Positions 35,384 through 39,650 of a DNA stretch of 64,000 bases are shown piece after piece. Under the pieces are notes generated by a model, which was given only the letters and a program-made list of their open reading frames with translations, was not told the DNA's origin and made no database searches. Both the position numbers and the translations under genes were made by a program. This stretch comes from Candidatus Acidulodesulfobacterium ferriphilum (GTDB lineage Bacteria; SZUA-79; Acidulodesulfobacterales; Acidulodesulfobacteraceae): contig SGBD01000001.1 in assembly GCA_004195035.1 (NCBI GenBank), forward strand, positions 1-64,000, in the 5' to 3' direction. Positions within the stretch are counted from its first letter, which is position 1; each line of letters opens with the position of its first letter.

Positions 35384-35524
35384 AAGTTATAATTTCCTTT
35401 CTATTCTTTATCTGGATTCCCGCCTGCGCGGGAATGACACATAAGTTATAATTTCCTTTCTATTCTTTATCTGGATTCCCGCCTGCGCGGGAATGACACA
35501 TAAGTTATAATTTCCTTTCTATTA
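35381..35524. repeat. Repeat copies G1/G2: triplicated ispB/lysA junction with two hairpins
   Basis: Two identical 59-base units (35381-35439 and 35440-35498) each consist of a junction segment (CATAAGTTATAATTTCC...) and a hairpin (CTGGATTCCCGC...GCGGGAATGACA). A third junction segment follows at 35499-35523. Each junction copy carries the lysA start codon and ribosome-binding site and the end of the polyprenyl synthase gene. Only the outermost copies are used. Confidence 0.92.
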
Positions 35525-36473
35525 TGTAATTTGCTATATCCGTTAAATTTCTTTTGTGTTCCGAATCTGGAAAAACATTTAAATTTTCTTTTGCTTTCAA
35601 AACGGCCGCCTTTGCTTTTGATATAGTGTAATCTATCGAGTCATAGCTTTTTACAAGTTTTAAAACAGCTTGAAGGTCTGCGTTCGTAAGTTTTTTCTTA
35701 TAAATAATTTCGGAAACGATATCTTTCTCGCTATTAAGGCATCTTTCCATGGTATGGATGAGCGGAAGGGTGAGCTTGCCCTCCTTTAAATCATTGCCTA
35801 TAAACTTGCCGAATTCTTCGTTTGAAGTATAATCAAGGGCATCGTCCATAAGCTGGAACGCAATGCCGATGTTTAAACCGTAATCGTAAAGATTTTGACC
35901 GTATTCATCGGTTTTCAGGGAAATTATTGCGCCTATTTGCGATGCGCAGGCAAAAAGCACGGCTGTTTTCTTTATAATTATATCGAGATAATCATCCTCC
36001 GTCGTTTTAATATCGGCGGTTTTAACAAGCTCTTTCACTTCGCCCTCGGCCATAAGCGTAACGGCAATAGAATAAGCCTTTATAACATCCATATTATCTA
36101 AGCTTGAAAGTACCTTAAAAGACTTTGCGAATAAATAATCGCCTACAAGCACCGAAGCTTCATTTCCAAAAACCGTATTTGCGGATGACTTTCCCCGTCT
36201 TAACGGGGCGTTATCGACAACATCGTCGTGAAGAAGCGTAGCCGTATGGATAAATTCGATAACTGCGGCTAAAGGAATATGGTCATCGCCTTTATATCCG
36301 CAAATTTTTGAAGATACAAGGAGGAGTATAGGGCGTATCCTCTTTCCGCCGCTTGAAATCACATATTTTGCAACCCTTTGAATCAGCGGCGTTTCGGTAG
36401 CAAGATGAGTTTCGAACTGGCTTTCGACCATTTTTAGTTCATCTTCTATATAATCAAAGGAAATATTCTGCAA
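35505..36473 (-). CDS. ispB: Polyprenyl diphosphate synthase
   Basis: The 322-residue trans-isoprenyl diphosphate synthase has the first Asp-rich motif in HDDVVDNAPLRRGKSSAN, the second in FQLMDDALDYTS, and GGKRIRPILLL. Such enzymes make C40-C50 side chains for quinones, or related prenyl chains. Chain length cannot be judged reliably from sequence by eye, so the ispB name is by analogy. Its last 6 codons lie in the junction segment triplicated by the repeat. Confidence 0.88.
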   Translation of the reverse strand: MQNISFDYIEDELKMVESQFETHLATETPLIQRVAKYVISSGGKRIRPILLLVSSKICGYKGDDHIPLAAVIEFIHTATLLHDDVVDNAPLRRGKSSANTVFGNEASVLVGDYLFAKSFKVLSSLDNMDVIKAYSIAVTLMAEGEVKELVKTADIKTTEDDYLDIIIKKTAVLFACASQIGAIISLKTDEYGQNLYDYGLNIGIAFQLMDDALDYTSNEEFGKFIGNDLKEGKLTLPLIHTMERCLNSEKDIVSEIIYKKKLTNADLQAVLKLVKSYDSIDYTISKAKAAVLKAKENLNVFPDSEHKRNLTDIANYIIERKL

Positions 36474-36550: not shown

Positions 36551-37906
36551 TTAACTTAAATATTCAATGATTTTTTTTAGTTTCGAAACAGGGTGAAAAT
36601 TTATTCCCTTAATACCTTTTATATCTTTTAAATTGGATTCGGGAAGTATGATATTAGAAAAACCTAAATTAACGGCCTCTTTAACGCGGGCAGACGGATT
36701 CATAACCCCCCTGACCTCGCCGGTAAGACCGATCTCTCCAAATGCTATAAAATCAGGGGGTATAGGCTTTTCTAAGTAGCTTGAAATAACGGAAACCGCG
36801 ATCGGCAAATCTATCCCCGGCTCTTGAATAGTTATCCCTCCAAATATTTTAACATAAATTTCTTTGGATGAAAGCTTAATTCCTTCTTTTTTTTCTAAAA
36901 CCGCCGCTATAATAGAAACCCTTCCGCCGTCTATTCCCAGACAGACCCTTTTTGGAACAGGCATATACGATTGAACGACAAGGGCCTGAACCTCCACAAG
37001 CAAAGACCGCGTCCCCTCCATACATGCCGTTACGACGGAACCCGGGGAACCGGCCTGCCTTTCCTCTATAAAATATGCCGATGGATTTTTTACTCCTGCC
37101 AGGCCGTTTTCGGACATTTCGTAAACGCCGATTTCATCGGTGGAACCAAATCTATTCTTATAACACCTTAATATGCGGTAAGAATCCTTTTTGCTCGAAT
37201 CAAAGTATAAAACGGTATCTACTATATGTTCCAGAGTTTTTGGTCCGGCAAAATTACCCTCTTTGGTAACATGTCCCACAAAAAATACCCCGCAATTTTT
37301 TTTAAGACAAGCGGATGTTATCTCGTGGGCGATTTCTCTTAAAGAATTAGGGCTTCCGTAGGCGGTTTCGGAGTCCGGCATCGTAACCCTTTGAATGGAA
37401 TCTATAATTATAAAATCGTAATCCCCGTTATTAACGGTATATAATATCTCGTTTATATCGTTAAGGGATAATAAAAACAGATTGCCCGAAGTAAGCCCGA
37501 GCCTTTTTGCCCTCAAAAGAAGCTGGTTTAATGATTCTTCGGTGGAAATATATAATATCTTTAAACCTGAACCGGGAGAAGCAAGCCTGTTTGAAATCTG
37601 AAGCATAAGGGTGGATTTGCCTATTCCTGGATCGCCGCCTATCAGTACGCTTTGACCGTTAACCAAACCTGAGCCGACGGAAACATCGAACTCGTTTATT
37701 CCTGTTTTAATTCGGGATAAAGCCTTTGAACTTTCTGCCTCTATCGGAGTTACGGGAGAATTTTCCGGGGGCTTATCGTATAACCTGACGGTTTTGGTTG
37801 ATTTTGCCTCGGGGAGGGCGATCTCCATCGTGTTATAGCTCTGGCACTCGGGGCATTTTCCGACCCATTTTATAGAAGCGGCGCCGCAATTCTTACACTT
37901 ATACAT
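36551..37906 (-). CDS. radA: DNA repair protein RadA (Sms)
   Basis: The 451-residue protein has an N-terminal zinc finger (CKNCGAASIKWVGKCPECQSYN) whose cysteines are C-x2-C and C-x2-C (quoted in part). The RecA-like ATPase core has Walker A GGDPGIGKSTLM, the RadA-specific KNRFGSTDEIGVYEM motif and a Lon-like C-terminal domain (LGIDGGRVSIIAAVLEKKEGI, quoted in part). It is a branch-migration helicase acting in recombination repair. It overlaps the upstream RpiB-like gene by 8 bases. Confidence 0.96.
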   Translation of the reverse strand: MYKCKNCGAASIKWVGKCPECQSYNTMEIALPEAKSTKTVRLYDKPPENSPVTPIEAESSKALSRIKTGINEFDVSVGSGLVNGQSVLIGGDPGIGKSTLMLQISNRLASPGSGLKILYISTEESLNQLLLRAKRLGLTSGNLFLLSLNDINEILYTVNNGDYDFIIIDSIQRVTMPDSETAYGSPNSLREIAHEITSACLKKNCGVFFVGHVTKEGNFAGPKTLEHIVDTVLYFDSSKKDSYRILRCYKNRFGSTDEIGVYEMSENGLAGVKNPSAYFIEERQAGSPGSVVTACMEGTRSLLVEVQALVVQSYMPVPKRVCLGIDGGRVSIIAAVLEKKEGIKLSSKEIYVKIFGGITIQEPGIDLPIAVSVISSYLEKPIPPDFIAFGEIGLTGEVRGVMNPSARVKEAVNLGFSNIILPESNLKDIKGIKGINFHPVSKLKKIIEYLS

Positions 37907-38411
37907 TTATGTTTTCTGCGTTAGCAATAAAATCCAGCACGGTTTGATTCTGTTCTGTAAAATCGGTTGAAAGAAAAATATTAATCTCTCTTTCGCAGTT
38001 TTTTGTGTCTATGGTAACATCATTATTTTTGACCACTATCACATTAGCGTTAAATTCTTTTCTCGAGTTGACGATAGTTTCGTCATCTACGGCAAAGACG
38101 GCTCTTACATTTTTGAATTTATTCAGCAAAACCGTAACGGCGGCATGATTGTTTTTAAGCAAGGCAATTCCAAACTCCAGCTTCCCCGTTTTTATCGCTT
38201 CCCCCAGTTTAAAAGCCATCCTGAATATGTCTTTATGCTGTTCTATCCTTGAAGGCCCTAAGTCGTAAAGGCTTGTCCATTTTGTATCGAGGTAAATCCC
38301 GACCTTTTCTTTAAAGAAAAAGCTATCCTTGTCGGAAAATATGCCGATTTTCAATGCTTTTTTATGCTGCCTGTCCGAAGTATTCACCCAATCCCTGAGC
38401 TGCATCGTCAT
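37899..38411 (-). CDS. RpiB-fold protein lacking the catalytic residues
   Basis: After a 20-residue N-terminal extension, residues 20-150 follow ribose-5-phosphate isomerase B from end to end: KIGIFSDKDSFFFKEKV for the nucleotide-like first strand, KLGEAIKTGKLEFGIALL, NKFKNVRAVFAVDDETI and EFNANVIVV. The key parts are changed. The S/C-D-H-x-x-F motif reads SDKDSF (His lost), and the catalytic CGTG loop reads LKNNHAAVT (84-93), with no Cys. It is therefore probably a non-catalytic sugar-phosphate- or nucleotide-binding protein. It shares an operon with radA. The fold match was made by eye. Confidence 0.7.
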   Translation of the reverse strand: MTMQLRDWVNTSDRQHKKALKIGIFSDKDSFFFKEKVGIYLDTKWTSLYDLGPSRIEQHKDIFRMAFKLGEAIKTGKLEFGIALLKNNHAAVTVLLNKFKNVRAVFAVDDETIVNSRKEFNANVIVVKNNDVTIDTKNCEREINIFLSTDFTEQNQTVLDFIANAENINV

Positions 38412-38514: not shown

Positions 38515-38543
38515 ATTTTATCCTATTAATAAGCATAAAACAA
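38515..38543 (-). promoter_or_regulatory. Sigma-70-type promoter of the RpiB-like/radA operon
   Basis: The minus strand has TTGTTT (38538-38543), a 17-base spacer and TAAAAT (38515-38520). The predicted start near 38508 gives a leader of about 97 bases, with AAAGGAAAGG about 12 bases ahead of the ATG at 38411. Confidence 0.5.
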
Positions 38544-38567: not shown

Positions 38568-39650
38568 TTATTCGTAATACTCCTCGAACGAAGGCCACAG
38601 GCGCTTAATTAATTTGTCTATATTATCCGCGTCTGTCATTCGGGGATAAAATTCCGACCGCTTTTTTGAAGCGGTTGACAGGGGGGTTTTAAAAATGGAT
38701 TCTATCTCTTCCTTGTATTCCTCTAATAAATTTTTTGATGTTTTTAAACTTTCCGCTACATAACCCCCCAATAAATTCCCTGAAATTACTGCGCTTACGA
38801 TACCCGCTCCGGTAATTGGATGCGTCAAGCCTGCGGCATCGCCGCACAACGCGATATTGCCGGAATATAAATCATTTAAGCCGGATACGGGAACAAGACC
38901 GGATGTTTTTCCATAAATATTGGAACCGATAAGTCCTTTATTTCTTATTTCGTTAAGAAAATTATTAAGAGAACTTGAAAGGGGCATATCGACCCTTGGC
39001 TTTTCGATACCTATGCCGACATTTGCAAATCTGCCTTTCGGAAAAACCCAGCCGTAACCGTAAGGTATATATGACCTGAAATAACAAATAGTAGAATCAA
39101 GTCCTTCCTCTTTTAAAATATCCGCCCTTACCTGCGTCGCGAAAATATAAGACTTATTTTTAAGCCTCTGTTTAAAATTACCGCGTAAATCAAAGCTATT
39201 TTTGGGACCGGCTGCTATAATCAAATAATCGTAATTAATTTCTATAGGCTTATTATCCGCGATGCGCAAGCCGGTTATCTTATTTTCATCAGCGTTAATT
39301 TTCAGGATGTTTGTCTGTTTAACTAAGTTAGTTCCCGCCTTGACCGCCGATTTGACAATATAGCCGTCAAAAACTTCCCGATTTAATATATAGCCCTTCC
39401 CTTCGGACCTGTAAATATTTTTGCCCGTATCGATGTCCATAAAGCTAACTTTTTGGTTTACAGCGGAAGGAATTTCGGCTAAATTAACGAATTGATTTAT
39501 ATTGCGGCTGACAAGCTCCGCGCATTGAACGGGGAAACCGATGATTTTTCTTTTATCGATTAAAACATTTTCTATCCCCTTAAGGGACAGGGAATACGCG
39601 CACGAGGCCCCCGCTGGACCCGCGCCTATTATCGCGGCCGCCGTTCGCAT
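38568..39650 (-). CDS. FAD-dependent oxidoreductase, geranylgeranyl reductase family
   Basis: The 360-residue flavoprotein begins with a dinucleotide-binding motif IIGAGPAGASCAYSL. It has the family signature around GFPVQCAELVS, a GWVFPKG motif and the second FAD motif ALCGDAAGLTHPITGAGIVSA (quoted in part). Relatives reduce prenyl chains of lipids or quinones. Encoded within 5 kb of a polyprenyl synthase, it may act on a quinone or polyprenyl substrate, but no experiment can be inferred from sequence. It follows the NHL protein by 7 bases. Confidence 0.85.
   Translation of the reverse strand: MRTAAAIIGAGPAGASCAYSLSLKGIENVLIDKRKIIGFPVQCAELVSRNINQFVNLAEIPSAVNQKVSFMDIDTGKNIYRSEGKGYILNREVFDGYIVKSAVKAGTNLVKQTNILKINADENKITGLRIADNKPIEINYDYLIIAAGPKNSFDLRGNFKQRLKNKSYIFATQVRADILKEEGLDSTICYFRSYIPYGYGWVFPKGRFANVGIGIEKPRVDMPLSSSLNNFLNEIRNKGLIGSNIYGKTSGLVPVSGLNDLYSGNIALCGDAAGLTHPITGAGIVSAVISGNLLGGYVAESLKTSKNLLEEYKEEIESIFKTPLSTASKKRSEFYPRMTDADNIDKLIKRLWPSFEEYYE

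Follow-up and report, generated by a model that had tools for sequence, protein, structure and literature searches.

The window analysed here, a stretch of 64,000 nt from Candidatus Acidulodesulfobacterium ferriphilum, carries a gene at 37899-38411 on the minus strand that starts with ATG, encodes a protein of 170 amino acids related to ribose-5-phosphate isomerase B (RpiB), and ends within the first codons of radA (sms; 36551-37906, minus strand), which encodes a normal RadA/Sms protein (TIGR00416, E=2.2e-145). The two genes overlap by 8 nt, ATGTATAA, at 37899-37906 (minus strand). Ahead of the pair lies a conserved promoter-like element, TTGTTT-N17-TAAAAT (38515-38543, minus strand), identified by comparison of loci, and the upstream neighbour encodes an FAD-dependent protein of the geranylgeranyl-reductase (GGR) family (38568-39650, minus strand; TIGR02032, E=2.2e-47). 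An earlier reading of this DNA, made from its letters without database searches (hereafter the sequence-only reading), had the coordinates, strand and length of the open reading frame right, as well as the 8-base overlap with a genuine radA. On its other side radA is flanked by a polyprenyl-synthase-like gene (35505-36473), and lysA- and dapA-like genes follow next; judged by gene content, the radA neighbourhood is of an isoprenoid and amino-acid type and not of a repair type.

The protein matches the Pfam family LacAB_rpiB (PF02502) with E=1.2e-14 and 54.9 bits, above the gathering score of 24.7, and the match spans positions 1-130 of the 138-position profile, as is expected of a whole-domain member. 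Among sequences with solved structures, RpiBs come closest (best 6mu0, E=6e-10). Scores against the more specific models fall well short of their cut-offs, at 35.7 bits vs 138.65 for the RpiB equivalog TIGR01120 and 52.9 vs 88.3 for the subfamily TIGR00689. An AlphaFold2 model built from an alignment of orthologues and distant RpiBs reached a pLDDT of 85.3 and a pTM of 0.80; from orthologues alone, the pLDDT was 60.8 with residues 32-58 unresolved, meaning that the structure of this segment depends on the mixed alignment containing canonical RpiBs. When the mixed-alignment model was compared with the PDB using Foldseek, the top 45 matches all belonged to the RpiB/LacAB superfamily, with query-normalised TM-scores of about 0.77-0.80 for the best RpiBs. 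Membership of the RpiB/LacAB fold, with a predicted Rossmann-like alpha-beta-alpha architecture, is well supported. The RpiB fold claimed in the sequence-only reading was thus recovered from both sequence and predicted structure, and the structure search that it had proposed as a check returned no different fold.

In RpiB, the catalytic Cys normally lies in a CGTG loop; the M. tuberculosis enzyme uses a Glu elsewhere. The roles of site residues were taken from studies of LacAB (PMC3755991) and kinetoplastid RpiB (PMC4783025). In the alignment of orthologues with canonical RpiBs, C-G-T-G falls on K86-N87-N88-H89 of the window protein, in agreement with the loop replacement read earlier: the catalytic position (Cys69) is K86 here and N, A, K, T or S among the orthologues, and Thr71 is N88. 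The Asp-His motif had also been read as replaced, which holds for His11 (K28 in the window protein; K, R, G or N across the orthologues) but not for Asp10, retained as D27 and invariant across all orthologues. Asp45 is likewise retained, as D61, and Tyr46 is I62. His102 (canonical H99) is E119, variable among the orthologues, Asn103 (canonical N100) is F120, and the phosphate-binding Arg113 (canonical R110) is N130. The C-terminal Arg-His and Arg of RpiB are missing from the window protein; some members of one genus have an Arg-His pair near the C-terminus, of uncertain alignment with the canonical GRH. Cys139, correctly picked out as the sole Cys in the window protein, is not conserved (S, C or Y in the orthologues). 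What is shared with RpiB (PF02502, TIGR01120) is therefore the fold, the order of secondary structures, the NKxxxxRA motif and the Asp of the Asp-His motif; the window protein differs in lacking the Cys and GTG loop, the intact Asp-His pair, the ring-opening His/Asn pair and the phosphate-binding Arg, and in carrying an 18-residue N-terminal extension. Of the catalytic and binding residues of RpiB, D27 and D61 are the only ones that remain, and apart from the Arg-His pair just mentioned the orthologues do not conserve the others either.

The genome from which the window comes also encodes an intact canonical RpiB (G000:C1:554229-554678), adjoining glyA and bearing the motifs SDHAGF, CGTGIGM, KHNNAN and GGRH, which also occur in 20 other family genomes examined. 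RpiA (PF06026) was not found in the nine family genomes searched, where the controls were positive. With canonical RpiB present and no RpiA, the isomerase function is already filled, making the window protein a paralogue and not the cell's isomerase. The interpretation of the window protein as an RpiB-fold pseudoenzyme, that is, a paralogue predicted to be catalytically dead, is well supported by its sequence, the predicted structure, the orthologues and the intact canonical RpiB encoded at another site of the same genome, as the sequence-only reading had it. As a side observation, the canonical RpiB of an unrelated genome (G304; L139 238-1944) is fused in frame to GlyA.

Orthologues, 60-84% identical, are present in 18 of 30 genomes of one bacterial family. 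A survey of relatives for adjacency to radA and loss of the same residues had been suggested; all 18 orthologues sit between the same GGR-family gene and radA, and in all of them the catalytic residues are missing. The related loci come from uncultured bacteria known through metagenome assemblies. One relative is named, Candidatus Acididesulfobacter diazotrophicus, which we take to be a member of the acid-mine order Acidulodesulfobacterales. The order has been described (PMC6776010). When 386 genomes were searched with a profile, comparable proteins turned up in this family only; two weak matches outside it proved to be ordinary RpiBs with CGTG intact, beside glyA or fused to it in frame. In a tree, the orthologues form one clade (100/100 support) outside the family's canonical RpiB clade, on a stem of 2.94 changes per site; so long a stem points to an old origin. 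A literature search for an RpiB pseudoenzyme or a link between RpiB and RadA returned nothing relevant, and the papers searched describe no equivalent, a dead RpiB encoded away from sugar operons.

Pairwise dN/dS values for the pseudoenzyme gene (YN00; pairs with saturated synonymous sites or zero counts excluded) are 0.05-0.19, in the same range as canonical RpiB (0.03-0.23) and somewhat higher than radA (0.02-0.15), which shows, as judged from codon comparison, that the gene is under purifying selection. Conservation is inverted relative to the enzyme: it has shifted away from the active site and now falls on a different face. Residues 19-50 (beta1-alpha1-beta2) are invariant at 25 of 32 positions in the 18 orthologues vs 12 of 30 in canonical RpiB from the same genomes, and the former catalytic loop, residues 86-96, is invariant at 0 of 11 vs 9 of 11. 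On the orthologue alignment, the near-invariant block covers codons 17-55 (38247-38363, minus strand), reads KKALKxGIFSDx[DE]SFFFKEKxGIxLDTxWTSLYDxGPSR, and takes in beta1-alpha1-beta2 and the following loop; the freely varying ex-catalytic CGTG loop and helix 3 correspond to codons 86-96 (38124-38156, minus strand). Synonymous change within the conserved block is normal, so the constraint acts on the protein, and a nucleotide-level element (an overlapping reading frame or an RNA) was ruled out. The last ten codons of the gene do show low synonymous change, as would be expected with the ribosome-binding region of radA located there. The idea that the protein is a nucleotide or sugar-phosphate sensor finds no support, since the phosphate-binding residues are gone and the RpiB pocket loop varies freely.

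These patterns bear on several explanations. An active enzyme acting on another substrate, through a new site centred on invariant positions, D27, D61, R55 and K60 for example, would fit the invariance of D27, D61, R55, K60, K34 and N97 in the orthologues. However, the loop with which RpiB holds its substrate varies freely, there is no conserved Cys, His or C-terminal Arg, and no sugar-pathway genes adjoin, so we regard new chemistry of this kind as improbable. Galactose-6-phosphate isomerase, LacA/LacB, provides a precedent for RpiB-fold subunits missing part of the active site (17% identity, one of two heterodimer sites used; PMC3755991), and canonical RpiB is the sole Rpi found in the family; the window protein could accordingly be imagined as a non-catalytic subunit of canonical RpiB in a mixed oligomer like that of LacA with LacB, altering the activity or stability of the isomerase. 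LacA and LacB, however, complement each other's site and belong to a lactose operon, whereas the window protein keeps neither half and has none of the His, Asn and Arg residues by which LacA contributes to the shared site. The usual dimer face of these proteins, alpha3/beta4/alpha4 (PMC3755991), is poorly conserved: alpha3 (0 of 11 invariant) and alpha4 (3 of 14) are among the least conserved parts, though beta4 is kept. Tyr120 of canonical RpiB is Phe in two older lineages that lost the gene, which would suit such a subunit, but the correspondence fails in other losses, and Y120F was dropped as a marker of gene absence once more loss genomes were added. On balance, a role as an RpiB subunit seems rather unlikely.

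Eight genomes retain radA without an intact copy of the pseudoenzyme gene, implying at least five losses; presence and absence mapped on the RadA tree require five changes, which are forced also by the well-supported branches. Two genomes preserve the remains of the gene beside an intact radA: in G022 all that is left is some 76 nt of the 3' end (95% identity), and in G026 the middle has been deleted and the two ends remain. Judged from these remnants, both cases are losses and not gains. Three further genomes lack the gene; all three are incomplete, and the locus was not found in them. The lost and truncated copies would be expected if the gene were a decaying relic that does little and persists chiefly because the translation start of radA lies within its 3' end, but a dN/dS far under 1, together with the near invariance of a 39-residue block across 18 genomes from three genera, requires selection on the protein, making a relic very improbable.

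The sequence-only reading had coupled the gene to radA through the overlap and a shared promoter, and the comparison of loci upholds this for part of the family. A promoter-like site, TTGTTT/TTGTCT-N17-TAAAAT, lies between the upstream gene and the pseudoenzyme gene at 8 of 11 loci from two genera, and in 7 of the 8 genomes without the pseudoenzyme gene the same site stands ahead of radA, in support of a shared promoter. In all ten further orthologues of these two genera, the gene overlaps radA by 8 or 14 nt; in the third genus the coupling fails, the overlap being replaced by about 40-185 nt of AT-rich sequence. The pseudoenzyme gene and radA are thus likely to be co-expressed, presumably by co-transcription. 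In the third genus (L012-L018), there are also 365-590 nt of AT-rich DNA between the GGR-family gene and the pseudoenzyme gene. The ribosome site of the latter, AAGGAGG, is strong, and the start of the gene probably lies four codons earlier (MASQ).

A dedicated partner or regulator of RadA, made in step with it and tuning branch migration or answering a metabolite, could account for the position of all 18 orthologues directly before radA, the 8-14 nt overlap in two genera and the conserved common promoter-like site, and a further point in its favour is G007, a 100% complete genome in which neither the pseudoenzyme gene nor a RadA match was found. At the expected site of radA in G007, next to the polyprenyl synthase, the GGR-family gene lies in inverted orientation (L149 ~2700-2974). 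Yet the gene is not kept wherever radA is kept, having been lost at least five times independently with radA retained, and no RadA alignment column was found to track its presence. Moreover, in the relatives examined, the GGR-family gene precedes the pseudoenzyme gene or, after its loss, radA, and this equal constancy makes the adjacency to radA ordinary static synteny. The overlap is absent in the third genus, and the radA start region accounts for both the 3' end left in decayed copies and the low synonymous change in the last ten codons. We therefore consider a dedicated RadA partner unlikely. The stronger proposal, in which the protein would be dedicated to the branch-migration helicase RadA as a regulator or cofactor, coupled to it in translation, and would tie recombination in an acidophile lineage to some other state of the cell, is in our estimation unlikely, and the DNA-repair role suggested in the sequence-only reading finds no support, given the losses with radA kept, the lack of a tracking RadA residue and the isoprenoid and amino-acid neighbours.

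The explanation we favour, and which we think probable, is that the gene encodes a dead RpiB paralogue repurposed as a non-enzymatic binding protein, accessory and non-essential, that is expressed with radA. Such a paralogue would have arisen before the family diversified, losing the isomerase and sugar-phosphate-binding site and coming to carry the N-terminal extension. Its beta1-alpha1-beta2 face (residues ~17-55, to which W45, Y49 and the GPSR loop belong) would most likely bind a macromolecular partner, for which RadA is one candidate among several. Its role would be accessory, with expression from the promoter in common with radA and translation probably coupled in two of the three genera; at least five losses show that the gene is not needed in many relatives. 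Against the repurposed binding protein stand these losses, the dependence of the confident model on an alignment with canonical RpiBs, and the retention of D27 and D61, which could allow some ligand binding or new chemistry. Overall, the picture is that of a genuine, repurposed enzyme that can be dispensed with, and not of a proven DNA-repair partner. A link with DNA repair, if true, would raise interest greatly; the support for it extends as far as likely co-expression.

The prozyme of trypanosome AdoMetDC (PMC6221367) is similar in being a dead paralogue kept beside the live enzyme in the same genome, and differs in fold and pathway and in its reported activation by heterodimer formation. 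The present family offers a clear-cut natural example of an enzyme being retired, with live and dead paralogues within the same genomes, and the repeated independent losses permit comparisons with and without the gene. In the genome that retains only the 3' remnant (L033), the gap between the GGR-family gene (end at ~3214) and radA (start at 2853) contains an inverted-repeat-like sequence, CCGTCATTGCGAGCGTAGCGAAGCAATCTCG together with its near complement, which suggests that a repeat element may have been involved in the decay.
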